A stretch of DNA of 37,871 nucleotides from Candidatus Woesearchaeota archaeon (GTDB lineage: Archaea > Nanobdellota > Nanobdellia > Woesearchaeales > GW2011-AR4). The stretch lies in the NCBI GenBank assembly GCA_016784195.1, contig JADHVE010000003.1, positions 1-37,871 of the forward strand. Reading direction: 5' to 3'. Below are positions 10,604-37,871 of this stretch, piece by piece. Every line of letters begins with the position of its first letter. Position 1 is the stretch's first letter. Position numbers and translations under genes: made by a program. A model generated the notes under the pieces. The model worked only from the letters and a program-made list of their open reading frames with translations. It did not search any database and was not told where the DNA came from.

Positions 10604-13054
10604 TCAATCTTTAACAATCTTGGTTGTAGCTACTACTTTATCTTCTCCGTTTAACTTCATTAATCTAACTCCTTGAGTTGCTCTTCCAATAACTGAAATA
10701 TCAGAAACAGGAACCCTTATCACAATCCCTTTCTGGCTTATGAAAATGATCTCATCATTATCCAAAACAGAGTTTACAGAAACAACCTTGCCGTTTCTTT
10801 CCGAGCATATGATATTTCTAACACCTGAACCGCCCCTGTTGATTAACCTATAATCCCCTACCTTAGTCCTTTTCCCATAGCCATTCTCAGTTACCGTCAA
10901 TAGGCTTTTCTCATCATCAGCAACAACCATACCTATAACTCTATCATTCTTCAGCCTTATTCCTCTAACGCCTTGTGCAGACCTTCCAGCTGCCCTAACA
11001 TCTTCTTCCTTAAATCTAACAGCTATTCCATTCTTTGTAGCTAAGATTATCTGCTTGTGTCCATCAGTTAGTTTTACATTTATTAATTCATCGTCCTCAG
11101 CCAGAGTTATTGCAATTACCCCGTTTTTCCTTGGATTACCATAGGCAATTAGCTTTGTCTTCTTAACAATCCCTCTTTTAGTCCCCATAATCAGATATCT
11201 TTCATTATCAAATTTCTTTACAGGAATAAAAGCATTAACCTTTTCATCTTTCTCAAGATTTAATAAATTAACCATGGCTTTTCCTTTTGCTTGCCTTCCG
11301 GCTTCAGGAATATAATAAACCTTAAGCCAATGCACCTTGCCTTTATTTGTAAAAAATAGCAGATAAGAATGCGTATTAGCTATAAAAAGGTCATTTACAA
11401 AATCATCTTCATGGGTTGTAGTTCCTATGACTCCTTTCCCTCCTCTTCTCTGTTGCTTATAAGTATCTAAATGCAGCCTTTTTATATACCCTGAATGTGT
11501 TATTGTAACAACCATATCCTCTTTCTCGACCAAATCTTCCATATTCAGATCTGTAGTCTCTACATCAACTATCTCACTCTTCCTCTCATCCCCATACTGC
11601 CCTTTTAATTCCAGTAATTCGTTTTTTATTATGTCTAGTATTTTTTTGGGATTTTGCAGGATAAACTTCAGCTCTTCTATAAGCTTCAAAAGATTTTTAT
11701 GCTCTTTTCTTATTTTTTCCTGCTCCAGCGAAGTTAATCTTTGCAACCTCATCTCAAGAATTGCATTTGTCTGCTCCTCGCTCAATTTATAATTAGAAAT
11801 TAAGGAAGTTCTTGCTGTCTCTGTAGATTTACTTTCTTTAATCAGTTTGATTATCCTGTCAATGTCATTCAAAGCTACGATTAAGCCCTCTAAAATATGG
11901 GCCCTCTGCTGTGCCTTATTCAGCTCAAATAATGCCCTCTTCCTCACAACATCTCTTCTATGAGAGATATAATGTCCAATCAAGTTTTTAAGATTCAGAA
12001 TCTTTGGCTCATTATTTACCAAAGCAAGTATATTTATTCCAAAAGTTGTTTGCAGTCTTGAATGCCTGTACAGCTGGTTCAGAACAACCTCAGCATTGCC
12101 GTCTTTCCTTAACTCAATAACCACCCTCATGCCGTCTCTATCTGATTCGTCTCTTAAATCCGATATCCCATCAATCTTCTTATCTTTAACTAGCTCAGCA
12201 ATATGGATTATTAACTCGGCCTTATTAACCATATAAGGAATTTCAGTAACAATAATGCGCTGTCTTCCTTTTATCTCTTCAGTAATTGTTTTTGCCCTAA
12301 CAATAACCTTGCCTCTGCCAGTGGAATAAGCATTTATTATTCCGTTTCTTCCGCAAATTAAGCCTCCTGTTGGAAAATCAGGTCCTTTAACAAACTGCAT
12401 TAATTCCCTAACTGTTATTTCAGGATTGTCTATCTGATTTATTACCCCATCAATTACCTCTGCTATATTATGCGGAGGGATATTTGTAGCCATTCCAACA
12501 GCTATTCCGCTGCTTCCGTTAATCAGCAGATTTGGCAGCTTAGCAGGCAGTACAGAAGGCTCTTTGTTGCTGTTATCAAAAGTAGGAACAAACTTAACTG
12601 TTTTTTTTTCTATATCCTGCAGCATTTCTTCTGCTATCTTTTTTAAGCGAGCTTCAGTATATCTATACGCAGCAGCTCTATCACCATCAACACTACCAAA
12701 ATTACCCTGGCCTTGCACTAAAGGATACCTCAACGAAAAATCCTGGGTCATCCTGACTAAAGAATCATATACTGCAGCATCACCATGGGGATGATATTTT
12801 CCAAGTACAGCTCCTACTACTGTAGCGCTTTTCTTGAAAGGCTTATTGTACAGCAAACCCATCTCATGCATAGCATACAGGATTCTCCTATGGACTGGTT
12901 TTAATCCATCTCGGGCATCAGGCAATGCTCTTCCGACAATAACACTCATAGAATAATCAACATAGCTCTGCTTCATCTCCTCTTCTATCACTCTCTGAAC
13001 TATCTCAGTCCCTTTGCTAGCTTCTTGTTCTTTTTTCTTGTTATTTTCATCCAT
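10604..13054 (-). CDS. gyrA: DNA gyrase subunit A
   Basis: '[31 protein letters not shown]', active site '[10 protein letters not shown]', GyrA-box 'QQRRGGKG'. Start placed at [10 protein letters not shown]. Confidence 0.96.
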
Positions 13055-13191
13055 TTTTAAAGCAGAATTTGACCTATTTTGTCGTCTATAAATAGGTATG
13101 TTCAAGGCTTTATAAGTATTATGTTTTTTCACTATTTATTTACTATACAGAAAATAATTAACAAATCAACGATTTGTTCAGGAATCAAATC

Positions 13192-26433: not shown

Positions 26434-26480
26434 AATAAAAAGAGCTTATTAGCCTATTTAAAATTATTTTGATTTTATAA

Positions 26481-26569
26481 CAAACACATTAATCAATCGA
26501 ACATTATTATGTGTTTGTTATATTCGACGAACTAAACACTATGTTTGAATATTTAGTTCGTGCACTATA
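26481..26569 (+). repeat. Double-hairpin dispersed repeat, copy 1
   Basis: caaacacattaatcaatcgaacattattatgtgtttgttatattcgacgaactaaacactatgtttgaatatttagttcgtgcactat; homologous to copies 2 and 3. Confidence 0.85.
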
Positions 26570-26609: not shown

Positions 26610-28379
26610 TTGATAAAAATGCCGTTAAGACAGGTCGTGGTGAGTTTTGTAGGTCATGTAGACCACGGGAAATCAAGTATCTTAGATAAAATTAGGGATA
26701 CCGCTATTGTCTCTTCTGAAGCAGGAGGCATTACCCAGGCAATCGGCGCTTCAATAATCCCTTTACAAACCATCAAAAAAATCTGCGGGCAACTGCTTAA
26801 AACCTTAAACATGGAAATCAAGATTCCCGGAATACTCGCAATAGATACTCCAGGCCATGCAGCCTTCACAAACCTGAGAAAAAGAGGAGGAAACTTGGCA
26901 GACATAGCCATATTGGTAATAGACATCCATGAGGGAATTAAGCCCCAGACACTTGAATGTATTGAAATTTTAAAGCAATACAAAACCCCTTTTTTAATAG
27001 CCTTAAACAAAATAGACTTATTATCTGGCTGGCAGCATCATGAAGGCATTTTGTTGGAAACAATAAAAAAACAATCTGCAAATATTCAGCAGTTATTAGA
27101 TAAAAAGATTTATGAGTTAGTGGGTAAATTATCAGAGCTTGGATTTAACTCAGAAAGATTTGATAGGATAGAAGATTATACAAAGCAGATTGCTATTATT
27201 CCTACTTCTGCAAAAACCGGCCAAGGCATACCTGAGCTTTTAATGTCCTTGACAGGCTTAGCCCAAAAATTTCTCGAGCAATGCCTTGAATGCAATATAA
27301 AAGGGCCTGCAAAAGGCACAGTATTAGAAATTAAAGAAGAAAAAGGCTTAGGCAAGACAATAGATGTCATAATCTATGATGGAACATTAAAGAAAAACGA
27401 CATAGTTGTTATTGGAACCCTTGATGAGCCCATTGTAACAAAAGTAAAAGCACTCCTTGAGCCAGCTCCATTAGCAGAAATGAGGGACAAAAAAAGCAAA
27501 TTCAGGCAGGTAAAAGAAGTATTTGCAGCTACTGGCGTAAAAATCTCTGCTCCGGAACTTGAAAATGCAGTAGCAGGAATGCCTTTAAGGTGCTGCAAAA
27601 AAGAAGAAATTGAAAAAATCAAAGAAGAGATCAAAAAAGAAATTTCAGAAGTCTTGATTGAAACAGAAAAAGAAGGCATCATACTAAAAGCAGATTCTTT
27701 AGGCTCTTTAGAAGCCCTGATAAAGCTGTCAAAAGAAAAAAACATACCTATAAGAAAAGCTACTATTGGAAACATCTCAAAAAAAGATTTGTCAGATGCC
27801 GAATCAATCTGCAAAAAAGATCCCTTAAAAGCAGCTGTTCTAGGCTTTAATGTAAAAGATGATTCAAAAACATGCATTGAGAATGTAAAGGTAATAACCT
27901 CAGATATAATATACAAGCTCATAGAGGATTTTGAAAAATGGCGGGAAGGGGAAATAAAAAAACAGCAAGGCAAAGCCCTCGAACTTTTGGTAAGGCCATG
28001 CAAAATGCAGATAATGAGGGGCTATATATTCAGGCAGAACAACCCCGCTGTTGTGGGAGTTGATATCTTATCAGGAACACTAAAAGCAAACACGCCTTTA
28101 ATGAATCAAAACGGCAACGAACTAACAGAGGCCAAAAGTATACAGCTGGAGCAAAAAAACATAGACAAAGCAGAAAAGGGCAAGCAGGTAGCTGTTTCTT
28201 TGCCTAATGTGACTGTTGGCAGGCAGATAAATGAAGGAGATATATTGTATAGTGCAGTACCAGAAGAAGATTTCAGAAAACTAAAGGACTTAAAAGACCA
28301 GCTAAGCCAGGAAGAAATAGCAATATTGAAGGAAATAGCAGAAATTAAAAGAAAAGACAACGTGGTTTGGGGAATTTAA
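26610..28379 (+). CDS. infB: Translation initiation factor aIF5B / IF-2
   Basis: G1 'GHVDHGKSS', 'AIDTPGHAAFTNLRKRGG', 'NKIDL'; C-terminal aIF5B region. Confidence 0.96.
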   Translation: MIKMPLRQVVVSFVGHVDHGKSSILDKIRDTAIVSSEAGGITQAIGASIIPLQTIKKICGQLLKTLNMEIKIPGILAIDTPGHAAFTNLRKRGGNLADIAILVIDIHEGIKPQTLECIEILKQYKTPFLIALNKIDLLSGWQHHEGILLETIKKQSANIQQLLDKKIYELVGKLSELGFNSERFDRIEDYTKQIAIIPTSAKTGQGIPELLMSLTGLAQKFLEQCLECNIKGPAKGTVLEIKEEKGLGKTIDVIIYDGTLKKNDIVVIGTLDEPIVTKVKALLEPAPLAEMRDKKSKFRQVKEVFAATGVKISAPELENAVAGMPLRCCKKEEIEKIKEEIKKEISEVLIETEKEGIILKADSLGSLEALIKLSKEKNIPIRKATIGNISKKDLSDAESICKKDPLKAAVLGFNVKDDSKTCIENVKVITSDIIYKLIEDFEKWREGEIKKQQGKALELLVRPCKMQIMRGYIFRQNNPAVVGVDILSGTLKANTPLMNQNGNELTEAKSIQLEQKNIDKAEKGKQVAVSLPNVTVGRQINEGDILYSAVPEEDFRKLKDLKDQLSQEEIAILKEIAEIKRKDNVVWGI

Positions 28380-28442: not shown

Positions 28443-28895
28443 ATGCAGAATTTAACAATTTTGAATAAAAAACAGGCAAAAGAAATTCTGAAATTGATTA
28501 AAAAACAATTCAATGCAGATTTTAAGTCAGACTATGCTTTCCTAAAAAACGAAAAAGAGAAAATATACTTGATTCATAAAGATATTTCAGTAATTAATAT
28601 TGAAAAGTTAAGAATCAATTCTTTCGGCATGTATTTTGCGCAAATAAGAAACAATGAAATAAGGCTCAGTATAGAAGGCTCACAGCTAATAGGCCCAAAA
28701 GCAGATAAAAACATTTTAGAGATAGATGAAAAACAAACAAAAGAATGGATGGCTGGAACTGATTTGGAGATTGAAGGAGATTATTCTGGATTTGTATTAG
28801 TTAAGCATAATAAAGATTTCTTAGGCTGCGGAAAAGCAAGAGATGGGAAAGTTTTTAATTTTGTAGGGAAAGCCAGGAGAATAACTACAACTTAA
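28443..28895 (+). CDS. PUA-domain protein (NIP7-like C-terminal region)
   Basis: 'IRLSIEGSQLIGPKADKNILEIDEKQTKEWMAGTDLEIEGDYSGFVLVKHNKDFLGCGKARDGKVFNFVGKARRI' typical PUA pattern. Confidence 0.82.
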   Translation: MQNLTILNKKQAKEILKLIKKQFNADFKSDYAFLKNEKEKIYLIHKDISVINIEKLRINSFGMYFAQIRNNEIRLSIEGSQLIGPKADKNILEIDEKQTKEWMAGTDLEIEGDYSGFVLVKHNKDFLGCGKARDGKVFNFVGKARRITTT

Positions 28896-30174
28896 TTGGT
28901 TCTGTTAATTCTTGTCTCCCAAATAAACTTTCTAAATTTCTTTTGTAATCATCAATAAATTCTTGTTTACTCAATTGCGAATTGCCTTGGTCACTCATCT
29001 TCACTTTCCCCCCTAATTGTTTTTCTTTGTAAAGCCCATGTCTCGCATTACTTGCTGTATCAATATAGCCGTAATGATATTGCTCTTTATCAAAAATTTG
29101 TATCTCTCTTGTTACTTTTCCTGTTCTCATGGTTGAAGTACTTACAACCACTTTAATCATCTTGAAACCATTAGGTTTAGGTGAAGCATACAGATCCCTA
29201 GTTAATAACCACTCTAAATCCAAATTGCCCAATTTAGGAGATTTTTTTAAATAGTCTCCAAATTCTCTAACTTCTTTCTCATCAGCAAGGATTACTCTAT
29301 TCGCTGTCCAATCGTTTATTGGATACTCTTTAGGGTATGTTTCCCAGGGGCATGTTGTTTTAAAATCAAATTTTTTTATTAATTTGGCTGTTAGTGTTTG
29401 TTTCAACCTCGAACTCATAAATCGGAAATTCGATCCTCGATATTCTTCAGCAGTAGGCGATTTAACATCTTCTAAAACTATGTTACCTTCATTCCTGGAA
29501 AGCATCAATCTGGATGCTTCCTTTAAAGTTCCATCATTTTCATCTTTAATATATTTCAATACTAAACCGCTCTGGACTGGTGAGATCATAGGCACTAATT
29601 TTTTCATTATTATTTGTCCATCTTCACCAATATAGTCTTGTATCTCATCTTCCTCAAAATAAAAAAACTTGGAGGTATTTATCCCAAACGAAGAGCTTTT
29701 CCTTAAAATATCAACCCCTCCAGAGTCTATGTTTCCTTGGTGATTATCAAATGCAGTCCTTACCATTTTCCTAGTCACATATTCATCTATAGTAGAGTAT
29801 CCTGATTGTTTTGTGTGTAAATAGTGTTCCCTATTACCGCTCAAATCTATTGGTAAAACCGTTTTAATATTCTCTTCTCCATAGAAAGTCCCCCCCACTA
29901 GCATAACAATCCTTTTTTTCTTTCTACCAAAAATCTGATTGTACAAACTTTGCGAAAATTCATACGTTGAAGTATCTAATATTTTTCTTTTCTTTTTAAT
30001 TTCATCTCTTGCTTTTTTCATATCCTCTTTAGAAATCTTGTATGTTAACCCTCTTTGAAAATTATTTTTCATATCCCTTACTATATCCCTAGCTTTTGAA
30101 TTCTTACCTTTATAGAAACTTTTCCCAAAATAAAAATCCATCAGGTTATGTTCTTTATTGTAAGATTGGACCAT
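28885..30174 (-). CDS. Divergent RelA/SpoT-type (alarmone synthetase-like) protein
   Basis: C-terminal half 'SRLKQTLTAKLIKK...INDWTANRVIL...LYASPKPNGFKMIKVVVSTS...TREIQIFDKEQYHYGYIDTASNARHGLYKEKQ' follows RelA_SpoT synthetase order. Confidence 0.6.
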   Translation of the reverse strand: MVQSYNKEHNLMDFYFGKSFYKGKNSKARDIVRDMKNNFQRGLTYKISKEDMKKARDEIKKKRKILDTSTYEFSQSLYNQIFGRKKKRIVMLVGGTFYGEENIKTVLPIDLSGNREHYLHTKQSGYSTIDEYVTRKMVRTAFDNHQGNIDSGGVDILRKSSSFGINTSKFFYFEEDEIQDYIGEDGQIIMKKLVPMISPVQSGLVLKYIKDENDGTLKEASRLMLSRNEGNIVLEDVKSPTAEEYRGSNFRFMSSRLKQTLTAKLIKKFDFKTTCPWETYPKEYPINDWTANRVILADEKEVREFGDYLKKSPKLGNLDLEWLLTRDLYASPKPNGFKMIKVVVSTSTMRTGKVTREIQIFDKEQYHYGYIDTASNARHGLYKEKQLGGKVKMSDQGNSQLSKQEFIDDYKRNLESLFGRQELTEPIKL

Positions 30175-30203
30175 TTTATTCAGTTAGTAAATTTTTTATC
30201 TAG

Positions 30204-30291
30204 CAAACACATTAATTAATCAAATATTATTATGTGTTTGTTATACCCTCCGAACTAAACACCATATTTAAATATTTAGTTTGTTCACTAT
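30204..30291 (+). repeat. Double-hairpin dispersed repeat, copy 2
   Basis: caaacacattaattaatcaaatattattatgtgtttgttataccctccgaactaaacaccatatttaaatatttagtttgttcactat. Confidence 0.85.
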
Positions 30292-30659
30292 ATTTTGTTA
30301 AAATCTCCTAAAACTTGGTTTACAACCTGCCCATAATTTTCGAGAATACTTTCTAAAGGAATATCTTTTTTTGTTTGAAACAGCAAAATTTGCTGAATCA
30401 TTTTTGCAACATCTGCTTCCTTTACATTTTTTGTTGTAACGGGGTCATTTTCCCCTGCAATTAATGGGTTTACATGTTGTTGTTCAGTATTTGGCATCCA
30501 TCCCAATCTACTATACCCATCTGTTGAAATAAGGGTGTAAAATGAATAAAAATCTCTATCAGGCAAGTCATTTGACCGGCCATATAAATGGATCTCATAC
30601 GTTTTCATTTCTTGGTAGGCTGGTTTTTGATTCTCTAATTGTTTCAATTTAACCTCCAT
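30288..30659 (-). CDS. Unknown 123-aa protein between the Rel-like hydrolase and synthetase genes
   Basis: Open frame MEVKLKQLENQKPAYQEM...VNQVLGDFNKI; no family recognised. Confidence 0.65.
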   Translation of the reverse strand: MEVKLKQLENQKPAYQEMKTYEIHLYGRSNDLPDRDFYSFYTLISTDGYSRLGWMPNTEQQHVNPLIAGENDPVTTKNVKEADVAKMIQQILLFQTKKDIPLESILENYGQVVNQVLGDFNKI

Positions 30660-30788
30660 TTAGTCATCAGATATAAACTACTATATAAACCTTTCTAATT
30701 TCTCCACTACCTAGTAGTTAATAATAACTCTAAGCCCTATACCTCTTAAGATCTATATTTTTTGCAAATACAGCCCCAACTTAAGAAA

Positions 30789-32117
30789 TTAGTCAGACTC
30801 TAACATATTTCTAAAGTCCTCAGCAGTCTTATCTTTTAGATTAATCAGGCTAAAATTTTTGATAATCTGCTCAGATTTTAATATAGATTCCAATAATATC
30901 AAATCCTGATACTGAGTTAAGTAATCATCTTCTGCAACTAATCCTTCTTTGTTGTCCAGCAACATCCTCATATACCTGTAAATAGTTCCATCAAATATGT
31001 TGCCGTTTCCACCCAGGGTTGTATTTAGAAAATCTTTTGTACCTTTGTAATCAATTAGTTTTTCATCAAGTCTCTTTCTATCTTCTTTGCTTATCAAGTC
31101 TCTTTTACATAAATAAGTAATATCCTTCTTGCATTGTTTCAAAGCCTCAGTTCTTAGTTCGCCAGCTTGTGTTGATATCTTGTGTAGGTAATCCTTCTTA
31201 ATTTTTGTTTCCTTGACACTCGCTTCATGAATTATCACCAGACTTTTCCATTCTGCAAAAAGTCTGTTTGGAATTCCAAAATAGTCTCTGGGCATGTCTT
31301 TTAAGTTTGATAAGTCATCTGCAATCTTGCAATGGATTGTTCTCCTCTTGATTCTTTCAATATCATTTTTAACCAAAAGTTTTGAATTCACATGTCTCTC
31401 ATATTCTTTTATAAATTGCGATTTATCCTTAATATCTTTAAAATTCCCATAGAATGGCAATACATCAACAGGAGTTATTTCGGTGATAAATCCACTCTCA
31501 GGCATAGTAAAATAGAATATTTGGTCATAAAGGTACCTCAAATGAGTATTGTTAGAATCTCTGGTGAGATTCTTGATAATAGTCATGATTATCTTAATAT
31601 CCTTATAAAATAAGTCCTTATTCTCAATTTTCTTATTATTTTTAACAAAATTATAGAATTCAAGCCCAATAGAGTAAAAAATAGCATTTACTTTGCCCCT
31701 ATAGGCAGGATCACTCGTTTTCAATTCCTTTTCTGCTCTCTCTTCTATAATATCATGCAACATCTCTGCGATATAAGCAGTATACCCCACCTGATAACCA
31801 TTCAATAAAGATGTTGCGCTAGTAGGATGGCTGATATAGGGTTTATTAGTTTTCCTTTTATGGCCTCTATGACCTGCAATAGAATATGCTCTTCCAAATT
31901 TCATCATCTCCACTATATCTTCAATAGAGCGTTCTGCCTTAAGACCTTCATCATGACTTTCCTTAACATGGGGGATGTAATGATCAGTTACATACTTTTC
32001 TAAACCTCTATTTTCCTTATCAAATACTGCATAGACTATATTTGAAATATATTTTCCCTTATCTCCCAATATCCTCCCCTCCATTTCCAATAATCCTACT
32101 AATTCTGTTAAGCCCAC
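30789..32117 (-). CDS. SpoT-type HD-domain (alarmone hydrolase-like) protein
   Basis: 'AYSIAGHRGHKRKTNKPYISHPTSATSLL...YIAEMLHDIIEERAE' and 'HCKIADDLSNLKDM' match the SpoT/MESH HD signature. GTG start at 32117, alternative start at MEGRILGD. Confidence 0.82.
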   Translation of the reverse strand: MGLTELVGLLEMEGRILGDKGKYISNIVYAVFDKENRGLEKYVTDHYIPHVKESHDEGLKAERSIEDIVEMMKFGRAYSIAGHRGHKRKTNKPYISHPTSATSLLNGYQVGYTAYIAEMLHDIIEERAEKELKTSDPAYRGKVNAIFYSIGLEFYNFVKNNKKIENKDLFYKDIKIIMTIIKNLTRDSNNTHLRYLYDQIFYFTMPESGFITEITPVDVLPFYGNFKDIKDKSQFIKEYERHVNSKLLVKNDIERIKRRTIHCKIADDLSNLKDMPRDYFGIPNRLFAEWKSLVIIHEASVKETKIKKDYLHKISTQAGELRTEALKQCKKDITYLCKRDLISKEDRKRLDEKLIDYKGTKDFLNTTLGGNGNIFDGTIYRYMRMLLDNKEGLVAEDDYLTQYQDLILLESILKSEQIIKNFSLINLKDKTAEDFRNMLESD

Positions 32118-32318
32118 CCATTAATCCATATCCTAAGTCCATCCTTTTGTACATTTTTCAACCTATTATCATTATTTCAAAAAATAAAGAAAAAACCCCT
32201 TTTTACAGGTAGTACTCATTTCTAATATAAATACTTAACTAAAAATCAATTTCAGTTTATCCTCTGCTATTCAACCAGATACCTTAGAAATAAAACCCAA
32301 TTTTGTTTATATAACCCT

Positions 32319-32402
32319 CGCATTGATTAATCGAACATGATTATGCGTTTGGTATATTCAACGAACTAAACAAAATGTTCGGATATTTAGTTCGTTCGCT
32401 AC
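32319..32402 (+). repeat. Double-hairpin dispersed repeat, copy 3
   Basis: cgcattgattaatcgaacatgattatgcgtttggtatattcaacgaactaaacaaaatgttcggatatttagttcgttcgctac. Confidence 0.85.
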
Positions 32403-32405
32403 AAT

Positions 32406-32822
32406 TTATTGCTTAATTTCAATACTGATCTCTTGTGAAGAATTCCTTAAGATTTCAGTAAACTCCTTGCATAACTCCCAAGCACCCTTGTCAGCCCTAA
32501 CGCCAAAAGTCCTCTCATCCCTAAAATCACTTTTCCTGATAACCATCTCTCTGTCAGAATTAAACTCAGGATTAATCTCCGCAACAATCTCTTCTTTTAT
32601 TATTTTATTATTTACTTTATCTTTCAATCCAATAATAATCTCTATCTTATTATTTTTTAATGATTTAATAAATTTTTTTAATTGAATCAAAAAAAAATCA
32701 GCATTAACCCCTATAATACAATCCCCCCTTAAACTTAAATTCTTATCTTTAGTAAATTCTAATGTAGTCTTATGTTTTGCAGTTATATTCGGATGTCCAT
32801 AAGCCTTAAATTTATATTGCAT
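32406..32822 (-). CDS. DUF371 family protein
   Basis: 'FKAYGHPNITAKHKTTLEFTKDKNLSLRGDCIIGVNADF' is the DUF371 signature. Confidence 0.88.
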   Translation of the reverse strand: MQYKFKAYGHPNITAKHKTTLEFTKDKNLSLRGDCIIGVNADFFLIQLKKFIKSLKNNKIEIIIGLKDKVNNKIIKEEIVAEINPEFNSDREMVIRKSDFRDERTFGVRADKGAWELCKEFTEILRNSSQEISIEIKQ

Positions 32823-32909: not shown

Positions 32910-33155
32910 CTACCTCAGCATATCCTCTATAGGCCTATCTGATTTTTTAGCAGTTTTAGCAGATTTCTGAGCTTCTTTAGCAACCTTCTCCAAATCTACC
33001 CCTAGTTCATTTAAGCCCTTGATATGCATCTGCATCAATTGCTCTACTATCTGGAGTATCTTCATCATTTCTTCTCTTTCCTTAGCCAGTGTTGTCAGAG
33101 CACCTTTATGAAATCCAACTTGTTCATCCTTATTAACATCCTGTTTTTTTGTCAT
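32910..33155 (-). CDS. Small helical hypothetical protein, 81 aa
   Basis: Clean ORF in an operon-like position; helical, charged. Confidence 0.6.
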   Translation of the reverse strand: MTKKQDVNKDEQVGFHKGALTTLAKEREEMMKILQIVEQLMQMHIKGLNELGVDLEKVAKEAQKSAKTAKKSDRPIEDMLR

Positions 33156-35491: not shown

Positions 35492-37765
35492 CTAAGAACT
35501 CAGCCTGGAATAGACATCCATAAACTCATCATAAATATCTTTTTTCTCTTCATAAGGCAGTTTAGTGTATAACTCCCTTGTCTTCGGATATAATCCTTTA
35601 GCAGCATCCATTTTGCCTTCATTCATCAAGCTTTTTATCTTCAATAACATATTATGGCATTTTACAAACTTTCTGCTTTTTCCTTCTATCCTCTTTTTCA
35701 ACATAACCTTTTCTTTAGGCTTTTTCACATGCTCTTCTTTTCCCCTATTCCCCTCACCTTTTCTTTGCTTCTCTGACCTCAATTTTTCAATCTCTTTTTT
35801 TCTCCTATATTCCTCTTTTTGCCTTATTCTGTCTTCTTCAACCTTTTTCATTTCACTTTCTCTCTGTTCCCTCAACCTCTCTTTTTCCCTTAACTTCTCT
35901 TCTTTCAGCCTCCCCTCTTCAATTTTTCTCTGCCTTTTCTCTTCTTCAGCCCTTTTGATTTCAAGCTCTTTTTTCTTTATCACATTCTCCCTTAACTTCT
36001 CTAACTTCGCTTTTTCTCTTTTTGTCTTATACAACCCAGCACTATACAAAAAATCAATTGTCTTTTTCTTTACTATTTTCTTAATCAATTTTTTCTTTAG
36101 TTCCCTAACCTTTTCTCTTTCCAACTGCTCTTTTTTTCTCCTCTTCCTTTCACTTTCTCTCTGTTCCTTCAACATCTCTTTTTCCCTTAACTTCTCTTCT
36201 TTCAGCCTCCCCTCTTCAATTTTTCTCTGCCTTTTCTCTTCTTCAGCCCTTTTGATTTCAAGCTCTTTTTTCCTCATCACATCTTCCTTTAGCTTCTCCA
36301 ACTTTACTTTCTCAAGCTCTTTATTTCTCCTAGATTCCTCTTTCTGTCTTATTCTGTATTCCTCCACATTCTTCCTTTCATTTTCCTTCTCTTTCCTTAG
36401 TCTCTCTTTCTTAGCTTCCCTCTCTTTTCTTTTCTCTTCCTCCTGTTTTCTTTCTCTTGACCTTTCAATCTCTATTCTTAACTTTAAAAATTCTTTTTCC
36501 CTCTCTTCAACCTTCCTCAAACTCTCTAGTTTCTTCCTCTCGTCCTCTTTCCTTCTCTTTTCATTCCCTCTTTCTTTTTCTCTCTTCCTTCTTTTTTCCA
36601 ACCTCTTCTTTTTTGATTCTCTGCCTCTAGCCCTGTAGATTCTAAGAATCCCGTTCACTCTATCTTTCCCTTTAGCTTTAACTTCTTTTAATTCTACTGC
36701 AGGAACTCTGCCAGTTATCCTCGCAAAGCCTCCTGTAAGTTTATGGTAGACATAAGCCCCAAAAGAAAATAAAACAAATATCAGCGCTAAAGAAATGGTC
36801 CAGCAAAGCACATCATTGCTGCAAAACCCTGCAATCTTAAACTCCTTATCAGCTTTTGCATTAACAACCTCAAATAAGTAACTTGAAGTTCCGACTGAGC
36901 TGCCATATTCTGCATGTACAACAAAAATATAATCCTTAGCCCTTAAGTTTAAAGGAATCTTTAAAGTCTTAAAAAAAGAAGCCTGAGTTTTTACAACAAC
37001 ACTCTCTGTTTCTGTTATAATTGTATTCCCTTCCAGATCCCTGACAAAATAATTCATCTCAACATTTACTGGCTCTATACCTTCAAGGTTAAATAGCCTC
37101 ACTTCAATATTAGCCTCCTGGCCTTGCGGAATTCTCCCCTCTTTTGAATTAGGATTAAGGTTTATATCAAACAAAACAGTCTTACTTTCAATCTCAACAA
37201 TAACTGGAATCTTCCTCAATAGACCATTAGAATAAACAATTAATTTACCAATATAAACTCCCGGGGCCTGCTCAATTTCTTGGTCCTTTAAAACAGAATT
37301 AAAATTTAGATTAATACTCTTTGTTTGCCCAGGTTTTATACTGAAAAATGGGTCCTTCACATCAACCATATCCAAGCCTTCTGCCTTAATCTCAAAACTG
37401 CTTTCATCCTCACCAGTATTCATCACTCTTATCTGCTTGTCAATGAACCCTCCTTGTTTAATCAAAACCTTGATCAATGTCTGATCGACCTCAAACTTGG
37501 GTTCGTTCTCTTTGATTTCCTCAGACAAAAACCCAACCCTGTTTTGCACAAGGAAAAATAGGCTGCCGGCTATAATCAAAAAAATCAGCAAAACAATAAA
37601 GAACAAAAACTGATTTGGCTTTTGAACAAATTTTCCCCTTTTTTTATTATTAAACTGCTCAGTACCTAAATAAACAGACTTTATCTTGCCACCATTTCCC
37701 CTAACCTTAGGGTAATTATCAGGCTTGGACCTTTCGTTTTTAGTGGTGTACCTCTTATAAGCCAA
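35492..37765 (-). CDS. Membrane protein: N-terminal TM, extracytoplasmic Ig-like domains, second TM, long K/E/R-rich helix, conserved helical C-terminus
   Basis: TM 'FLFFIVLLIFLIIAGSLFFLV' and 'CWTISLALIFVLFSFGAYVYHKL'; extended charged helix; C-terminal 'KCHNMLLKIKSLMNEGKMDAAKGLYPKTRELYTKL'. SD 'gagggtgat' favours TTG start at 37765. Confidence 0.78.
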   Translation of the reverse strand: MAYKRYTTKNERSKPDNYPKVRGNGGKIKSVYLGTEQFNNKKRGKFVQKPNQFLFFIVLLIFLIIAGSLFFLVQNRVGFLSEEIKENEPKFEVDQTLIKVLIKQGGFIDKQIRVMNTGEDESSFEIKAEGLDMVDVKDPFFSIKPGQTKSINLNFNSVLKDQEIEQAPGVYIGKLIVYSNGLLRKIPVIVEIESKTVLFDINLNPNSKEGRIPQGQEANIEVRLFNLEGIEPVNVEMNYFVRDLEGNTIITETESVVVKTQASFFKTLKIPLNLRAKDYIFVVHAEYGSSVGTSSYLFEVVNAKADKEFKIAGFCSNDVLCWTISLALIFVLFSFGAYVYHKLTGGFARITGRVPAVELKEVKAKGKDRVNGILRIYRARGRESKKKRLEKRRKREKERGNEKRRKEDERKKLESLRKVEEREKEFLKLRIEIERSRERKQEEEKRKEREAKKERLRKEKENERKNVEEYRIRQKEESRRNKELEKVKLEKLKEDVMRKKELEIKRAEEEKRQRKIEEGRLKEEKLREKEMLKEQRESERKRRKKEQLEREKVRELKKKLIKKIVKKKTIDFLYSAGLYKTKREKAKLEKLRENVIKKKELEIKRAEEEKRQRKIEEGRLKEEKLREKERLREQRESEMKKVEEDRIRQKEEYRRKKEIEKLRSEKQRKGEGNRGKEEHVKKPKEKVMLKKRIEGKSRKFVKCHNMLLKIKSLMNEGKMDAAKGLYPKTRELYTKLPYEEKKDIYDEFMDVYSRLSS
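35851..36280. repeat. Two near-identical 133-bp direct repeats (35851-35983 and 36148-36280) within the charged-helix CDS
   Basis: Same 133-nt sequence with only a few mismatches, offset exactly 297 nt (99 codons), encoding KKELEIKRAEEEKRQRKIEEGRLKEEKLREKE... Confidence 0.88.
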
Positions 37766-37871
37766 TAATATCACCCTCAATACTACTCCAAGAATACAAA
37801 TAACTTAAATAAACATTAAAATACAAAACTACCACCCCTTTTTTTGTAGTGTAACCACCACAAATAACTTT

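Follow-up and report, generated by a model that had tools for sequence, protein, structure and literature searches.

A contig of 37,871 nucleotides from a Candidatus Woesearchaeota archaeon (JADHVE010000003.1, here called the window, from a genome of 1.09 Mb in 73 contigs designated G000) carries in tandem the genes for a 442-aa protein with an HD domain, a 123-aa protein and a 429-aa protein resembling RelA/SpoT synthetases, which raises the question of whether these genes make up a split housekeeping enzyme or a system of genetic conflict. In bacteria, separate genes for a synthetase (SYNTH) domain and for an HD hydrolase are known as toxin and enzymatic antidote. A preliminary description of the window had reported the three minus-strand open reading frames (ORFs), and we found their coordinates and lengths to be as given there (Table 1). 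It had also taken the DNA to be archaeal, in agreement with the archaeal genes surrounding the locus and with a relative from the same order, G036 (JAHFPP010000022.1, “Candidatus Woesearchaeota archaeon”). Our analysis suggests that a fixed woesearchaeal slot houses a polymorphic cassette of two to three genes, of which this locus is one allele. The fixed slot, the hypervariability of its genes and the swapping of partners are more important findings than the gene-level observation of the preliminary description.

A fixed chromosomal slot for HD and synthetase-like genes

Neighbourhoods of DUF371 or HD genes were fetched across the order and the family, and slots were counted where both borders lie on one contig (n=69); six of these loci were initially fetched through an HD or PF04607 match, which biases the counts slightly. 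The arrangement is conserved across the order and family and reads (81-aa gene), DUF371, (archaeal PUA protein) and cassette, followed by the convergent genes for a PUA-like protein and for translation initiation factor IF2. In these counts a partner is defined by its position and by similarity to the positional set, and the evidence for a synthetase domain varies from partner to partner. An HD gene together with a partner, always with the HD gene first, occupies 26 of the 69 slots, while eight hold a partner only and four an HD gene only; 15 slots are empty and 16 contain other genes. An HD gene, a SYNTH-like partner or both are therefore found in 38 of the 54 occupied slots. The co-occurrence of HD and synthetase genes in related genomes, on which the preliminary description had let its proposal depend, is thus borne out in the same gene order, and also away from the slot in G197.

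Two genomes illustrate how the pair behaves. The HD and 429-like genes of G036 abut each other, and their neighbours are, as in the window, the DUF371 and 81-aa genes. The slot of G197 is empty, and an HD and 429-like pair lies beside a prolyl-tRNA synthetase gene, which indicates that the pair moves as a unit. Furthermore, most of the RelA_SpoT genes of 280-480 aa found outside the slot in this order have no adjacent HD gene, so that pairing is a property of the cassette and not of every short SYNTH gene.

The other occupants of the slot include a 724-aa TyrRS-like protein (L156:7495-9669), an 823-aa class I tRNA-synthetase-like protein (L108:10492-12963), an RNA ligase (L097:7000-7731) and an AbiEii-like nucleotidyltransferase. 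The first three of these are all related to RNA.

HD and partner genes are replaced independently

Among twelve genomes of genus g4, IF2 is 69-81% identical (median 75%), while the corresponding medians in global alignments are 4.7% for the HD proteins and 7.5% for the partners. Pairwise comparisons show that the HD protein and the partner are replaced independently of each other at one slot, and in both directions. The HD proteins of G210 and G203 are 65% identical and their partners 1%, and for G161 and G210 the figures are 55 and 10%; conversely, it is the partners that are similar in G211 and G212 (HD 1%, partner 39%) and in G198 and G209 (HD 0%, partner 40%). Four HD types accompany synthetase clade S0 across the order, and two each accompany S4, S5 and S8.

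An HD hydrolase with an invariant active site

From its motifs and profile matches, the 442-aa protein is predicted to be a SpoT-type HD hydrolase. The HD motifs quoted in the preliminary description are present, and the match to SpoT/Rel is also seen by profiles: the protein matches Pfam HD_4 (E 9e-5) at 22.7 bits, below the curated cut-off of 27.2, NCBIfam spoT_relA over residues 82-127 (E 2.6e-7) and solved Rel structures over the H...HD motif region (E 3e-5). A relative in G065 passes the HD_4 cut-off with 27.9 bits, and HD clade H1 is aligned to canonical Rel by hhalign at 99%. The slot HD proteins are 369-639 aa long and share 11-22% identity with the window protein (n=31), and exactly four columns are invariant in 31/31 of them, H97, H121, D122 and E125, which are the metal-site and catalytic residues of the HD domain. 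The invariance of these four residues at so low an identity indicates that hydrolase chemistry is kept by selection while the remainder of the protein changes.

A predicted, divergent Rel synthetase domain in the partner

Profile comparisons identify the C-terminal part of the 429-aa protein as a divergent RelA/SpoT SYNTH domain. The protein contains the synthetase-like order of motifs quoted earlier, and taken alone it has no match in Pfam, PDB, NCBIfam or PADLOC. Homologues were found in G036 (cut at the contig end), the only relative retrieved by a genome-wide scan, at full length in G208, G197 and G223 of the same family, and, from the slot survey, in G224. The alignment of this clade (A5) comprises a common N-terminal region of ~240 aa and the C-terminal domain. 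Its profile matches 30 canonical woesearchaeal Rel proteins over the SYNTH domain with an hhalign probability of 90% (E 1.5e-6), while six unrelated decoy families reach at most 0.6%, which argues that the resemblance to Rel is not due to chance. In the reverse direction, a search of 380 genomes of the phylum with the hidden Markov model (HMM) of the clade recovers canonical long Rel ORFs, at best with E 3.5e-8; all matches outside the clade are confined to the C-terminal half of the profile. The Rel-synthetase identity proposed in the preliminary description is supported by these comparisons in both directions. Individual homologues also approach or pass the PF04607 (RelA_SpoT) cut-off of 27 bits, with 29.0 bits in G223, 25.4 in G197 and 19.4 in G224.

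Within the aligned domain, the active-site Asp and Glu of Rel (metal/catalytic) are kept in the window protein as D288 and E357, and R256, K258 and K264 fit what we take, from RelSeq, to be the basic motif that binds ATP. The replacement of GYxSxH by GFKMIK that had been pointed out earlier is confirmed by the alignment, in which N(G/M)YQSLH of Rel faces N335-G336-F337-K338-M339-I340-K341. The catalytic Glu is lost in the G208 homologue (E to G, RGIQ for REIQ). An AlphaFold2 model of the 429-aa protein built on two sequences has a mean predicted local distance difference test score (pLDDT) of 32.

The slot partners as a set are 338-965 aa long, and RelA_SpoT is the sole Pfam family that recurs among them, with a match (E<=1) in 12 of 35. 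Five partners lie well above the RelA_SpoT cut-off (41-65 bits), and a relative in G175 of the G149 partner scores 33 bits. By hhalign, the synthetase relationship is clear for partner clades S0a, S0b, S0c and S9 and suggestive for S5, S8 and S11. The most conserved internal columns in the alignment of the 35 partners are the SYNTH skeleton: D288 (28/32), G336 (26/28), H379 (26/34), Q359 (24/34) and E357 (22/34). Several partner families keep the full GYxS-H/ExQxR set. In partners that profiles do not detect, 49 of 78 key SYNTH residues are present, compared with a mean of 28 and a maximum of 40 in 20 shuffled controls, an excess that provides modest evidence for a SYNTH domain in these proteins as well.

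Third genes and a repeated two-hairpin element

The suggestion that the 123-aa protein might be a third component gains support from homologues in the cassettes of G115, G212 and G201 and weaker ones in G136 and G182, where the partner types differ. The protein has no match in Pfam, NCBIfam or PADLOC, and an AlphaFold2 model from the single sequence gives a pLDDT of 46. At the same position, other cassettes have a small methyltransferase-like or GNAT-like gene. A methyltransferase-like gene, in place of the 123-aa gene, closes some cassettes (L036:8926-9765, L087:12460-13038, L148:7879-8496 and L162:4716-5306).

The window further contains three copies of a two-hairpin element of ~96 nt (Table 1), with folding z-scores of -2.8, -3.1 and -5.4; within the genome the element is confined to the window. 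An Rfam search of the region, the element included, gave no match, and relatives of the element occur at unrelated sites in G210 and G093 and near the slot in G182. A regulatory RNA, a small mobile repeat and a recombination seed are all conceivable identities for the element, whose association with the cassette is only a candidate one. The loop sequences of the element are potentially complementary to each other, with compensatory changes from copy to copy.

A proposed conflict system resembling toxSAS

The adjacency of the SYNTH and HD genes, the intact HD site, effector-like variability, presence and absence, mobility and the exchange of partners together fit a conflict system of the toxic small alarmone synthetase (toxSAS) type. 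We consider it fairly probable that the cassette consists of a toxSAS-like SYNTH effector and its HD antidote, and that this polymorphic cassette has been diversified by gene exchange as in toxin-antitoxin or antiviral conflict. What we infer beyond the genes themselves, namely enzymatic activity, substrate, toxicity, neutralisation and an antiviral role, would run as follows. The SYNTH domain of the 429-aa effector probably uses ATP as pyrophosphate donor, with a purine nucleotide or the 3′ end of tRNA as acceptor; this would halt growth or translation, and the 442-aa HD antidote would strip this 3′-pyrophosphate in unstressed cells. Partner recognition and the trigger probably depend on the variable N-terminal region of the effector, the variable C-terminal region of its HD antidote and the 123-aa protein. 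The independent replacement of the two genes at one slot, described above, is what would be expected of a toxin-antitoxin or antiviral system in an arms race. A more specific and more tentative proposal is that the slot is a dedicated woesearchaeal immune locus, in which a polymorphic SYNTH/HD system pyrophosphorylating nucleotides or tRNA would swap effectors and antidotes independently and sometimes give way to other RNA-targeting genes.

The closest described arrangement is that of FaRel in Cellulomonas marina, which has two antitoxins, the small alarmone hydrolase (SAH) ATfaRel and AT2faRel (PMC11782079), and where, as here, the gene of a SYNTH effector lies beside that of an HD alarmone hydrolase, sometimes with a third small gene. 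By this likeness the woesearchaeal HD protein would serve as an enzymatic antidote. Unlike FaRel, the woesearchaeal cassette is archaeal, has large extra regions in both proteins, a family-specific N-terminal region and an altered nucleotide loop, and sits in a fixed slot at which both genes are independently exchanged; its third gene has no sequence relation to known families. For the chemistry, CapRel and FaRel2, antiphage toxSAS enzymes that pyrophosphorylate the CCA end of tRNA (PMC9712102, PMC11559606), are a plausible model, with SYNTH as an effector that targets translation. Their neutralisation differs, as it relies not on an HD hydrolase but on a pseudo-zinc-finger, either a domain or a separate protein, which keeps ATP from binding; no such domain was recognised in the woesearchaeal cassette. 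Archaea also have SYNTH-only or HD-only proteins, the small alarmone synthetases and hydrolases divRel, divSpo, pbcSpo and Mesh1-L, which are sporadic (PMC3153485) and, unlike the cassette, are single genes in few euryarchaea with no adjacent pairs in a conserved slot. A full-text literature search, with many subscription papers and bioRxiv outside its coverage, found no account of such cassettes in archaea.

Relation to long Rel and alternative explanations

RelA/SpoT proteins have been reported in 41.7% of Woesearchaeota genomes (PMC8407392). The long RelA/SpoT homologues (RSH) have HD and SYNTH domains homologous to those of the cassette, but they combine them, along with C-terminal regulatory domains, in one polypeptide of ~640 aa found at varied chromosomal positions, unlike the two separate genes of the window. 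We found canonical long Rel in 67 of the 196 genomes of the order and in none of the 36 genomes of the window's family, G000 included, for which reason the locus was rejected as a mere second copy of a housekeeping Rel in this family. Additional short SYNTH proteins (280-480 aa), one or two per genome, are encoded elsewhere in many genomes of the order and lack an adjacent HD gene.

The absence of long Rel from the window's family, together with the position of the slot within a cluster of translation genes (IF2, PUA proteins, Trm1), favours another explanation, that the HD and SYNTH proteins together are the ordinary alarmone enzyme of the stringent response where long Rel is lacking, split into two genes and diverged under the relaxed constraint of small genomes. 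We regard this as unlikely, because genomes of the same genus have empty slots (G197, G199, G205, G213), three genomes with both HD and SYNTH genes also carry long Rel, the two genes are independently replaced while IF2 stays ~75% identical, and the invariance of the HD catalytic residues speaks against relaxed constraint. Long Rel is present in the genomes of 3 of 26 slots with HD and partner, compared with 6 of 8 slots with a partner only (Fisher p 0.0014), as might be expected if the partner depends on a hydrolase of some kind in the cell. The two partner-only slots without long Rel are those of G208, where the catalytic Glu is lost, and G041.

Several observations weigh against the toxSAS-like interpretation. 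The synthetase of the G041 partner-only slot looks intact and neither an HD gene nor long Rel was found in that genome, which makes it a counter-example, and the association between partner-only slots and long Rel is phylogenetically confounded, with a p value of 0.05 outside the window's family (f1). Profile comparison by hhalign gave no synthetase match for partner clades S4, S7 and S10 and several singletons, and the residue-pattern excess is the only link between such undetectable families and SYNTH. No relatives of the HD, 123-aa or 429-aa proteins were found in the viral contigs searched, and PADLOC gave no match for the window proteins and, for some partners, only weak ones to the candidate model PDC-S33. 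Finally, Phe replaces the nucleotide-binding Tyr in each of the five members of the P0001 clade that cover the site, and the loop His is Lys or Asn. The same Tyr-to-Phe change at the corresponding position of FaRel2 yields the catalytically compromised form used in the laboratory (PMC11782079), suggesting that the 429-aa clade may be attenuated or weak, or may use another substrate or acceptor.

These loop changes, Tyr to Phe and His to Lys, along with the loss of Glu in G208 and the perfect conservation of the HD but not of the SYNTH residues, would also suit a partner that is a catalytically dead or repurposed SYNTH-fold sensor of nucleotides or RNA regulating the HD protein, which would then be the effector acting on nucleotides or RNA. 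The acidic residues D288 and E357 retained in the window protein and the entire GYxS-H/ExQxR set retained by several partner families make this explanation improbable, slightly more so than a split housekeeping enzyme. Least credible is a neutral insertion hotspot that accepts any gene and in which HD/SYNTH pairs are common passengers: it would account for the 16 slots with aminoacyl-tRNA-synthetase-like, RNA ligase, nucleotidyltransferase and other genes, but one functional type fills 38 of the 54 occupied slots with HD first whenever both genes are present, several of the other occupants are themselves related to RNA or translation, and the pair travels together in G197.

If the toxSAS-like interpretation is right, a large uncultured order of archaea possesses a conflict system that works through alarmones or tRNA and whose proteins have diverged so far that most of them escape profile databases; since the slot is conserved, the cassette can be found by position. 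Hypothetical proteins that look unrelated would become one testable system, archaeal immunity via (p)ppGpp-like chemistry would become a directly testable question, and many natural combinations of effector and antidote would be on offer for studies of specificity.

Features of the window

Table 1. Coordinates in the window of the cassette, its borders and the repeated element
Feature	Coordinates	Strand	Remarks
Predicted HD hydrolase gene (442 aa, GTG start)	30789..32117	-	SpoT/MESH1-like HD domain ~residues 73-275 and extra C-terminal region
Segment encoding the first HD motifs	31725..31901	-	residues 73-131: HRGHKRKTNKPYISHP ... LHDIIEE
Candidate third-component gene (123 aa, u123 family)	30288..30659	-	homologues in other HD/SYNTH cassettes
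Partner gene (429 aa)	28885..30174	-	family-specific N-terminal region ~240 aa and putative C-terminal RelA/SpoT synthetase (SYNTH) domain
Putative SYNTH domain of the partner, ~residues 250-384	29023..29427	-	R256/K258/K264, D288, R293, G336-F337, E357, Q359, H379
DUF371 gene, upstream border of the slot	32406..32822	-	Pfam PF04027, E 1e-31
Conserved 81-aa gene	32910..33155	-	upstream of DUF371, usual neighbour
Convergent 150-aa gene, downstream border of the slot	28443..28895	+	RsmF-type PUA-like domain
Translation initiation factor IF2 gene	26610..28379	+	adjoins the slot
~96-nt two-hairpin repeat, copy A	32304..32399	-	between the DUF371 and HD genes
~96-nt repeat, copy B	30193..30288	-	between the 123-aa and partner genes
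~96-nt repeat, copy C	26470..26565	-	between IF2 and Trm1

Elsewhere in the window, an 842-aa ORF on the minus strand (10604-13132) resembles by eye a bacterial-type DNA gyrase subunit A, here in an archaeal genome. A 762-aa ORF on the same strand (35492-37780) shows by eye an apparent transmembrane segment followed by a very long, charged C-terminal part rich in K, E and R, which is probably a coiled-coil.

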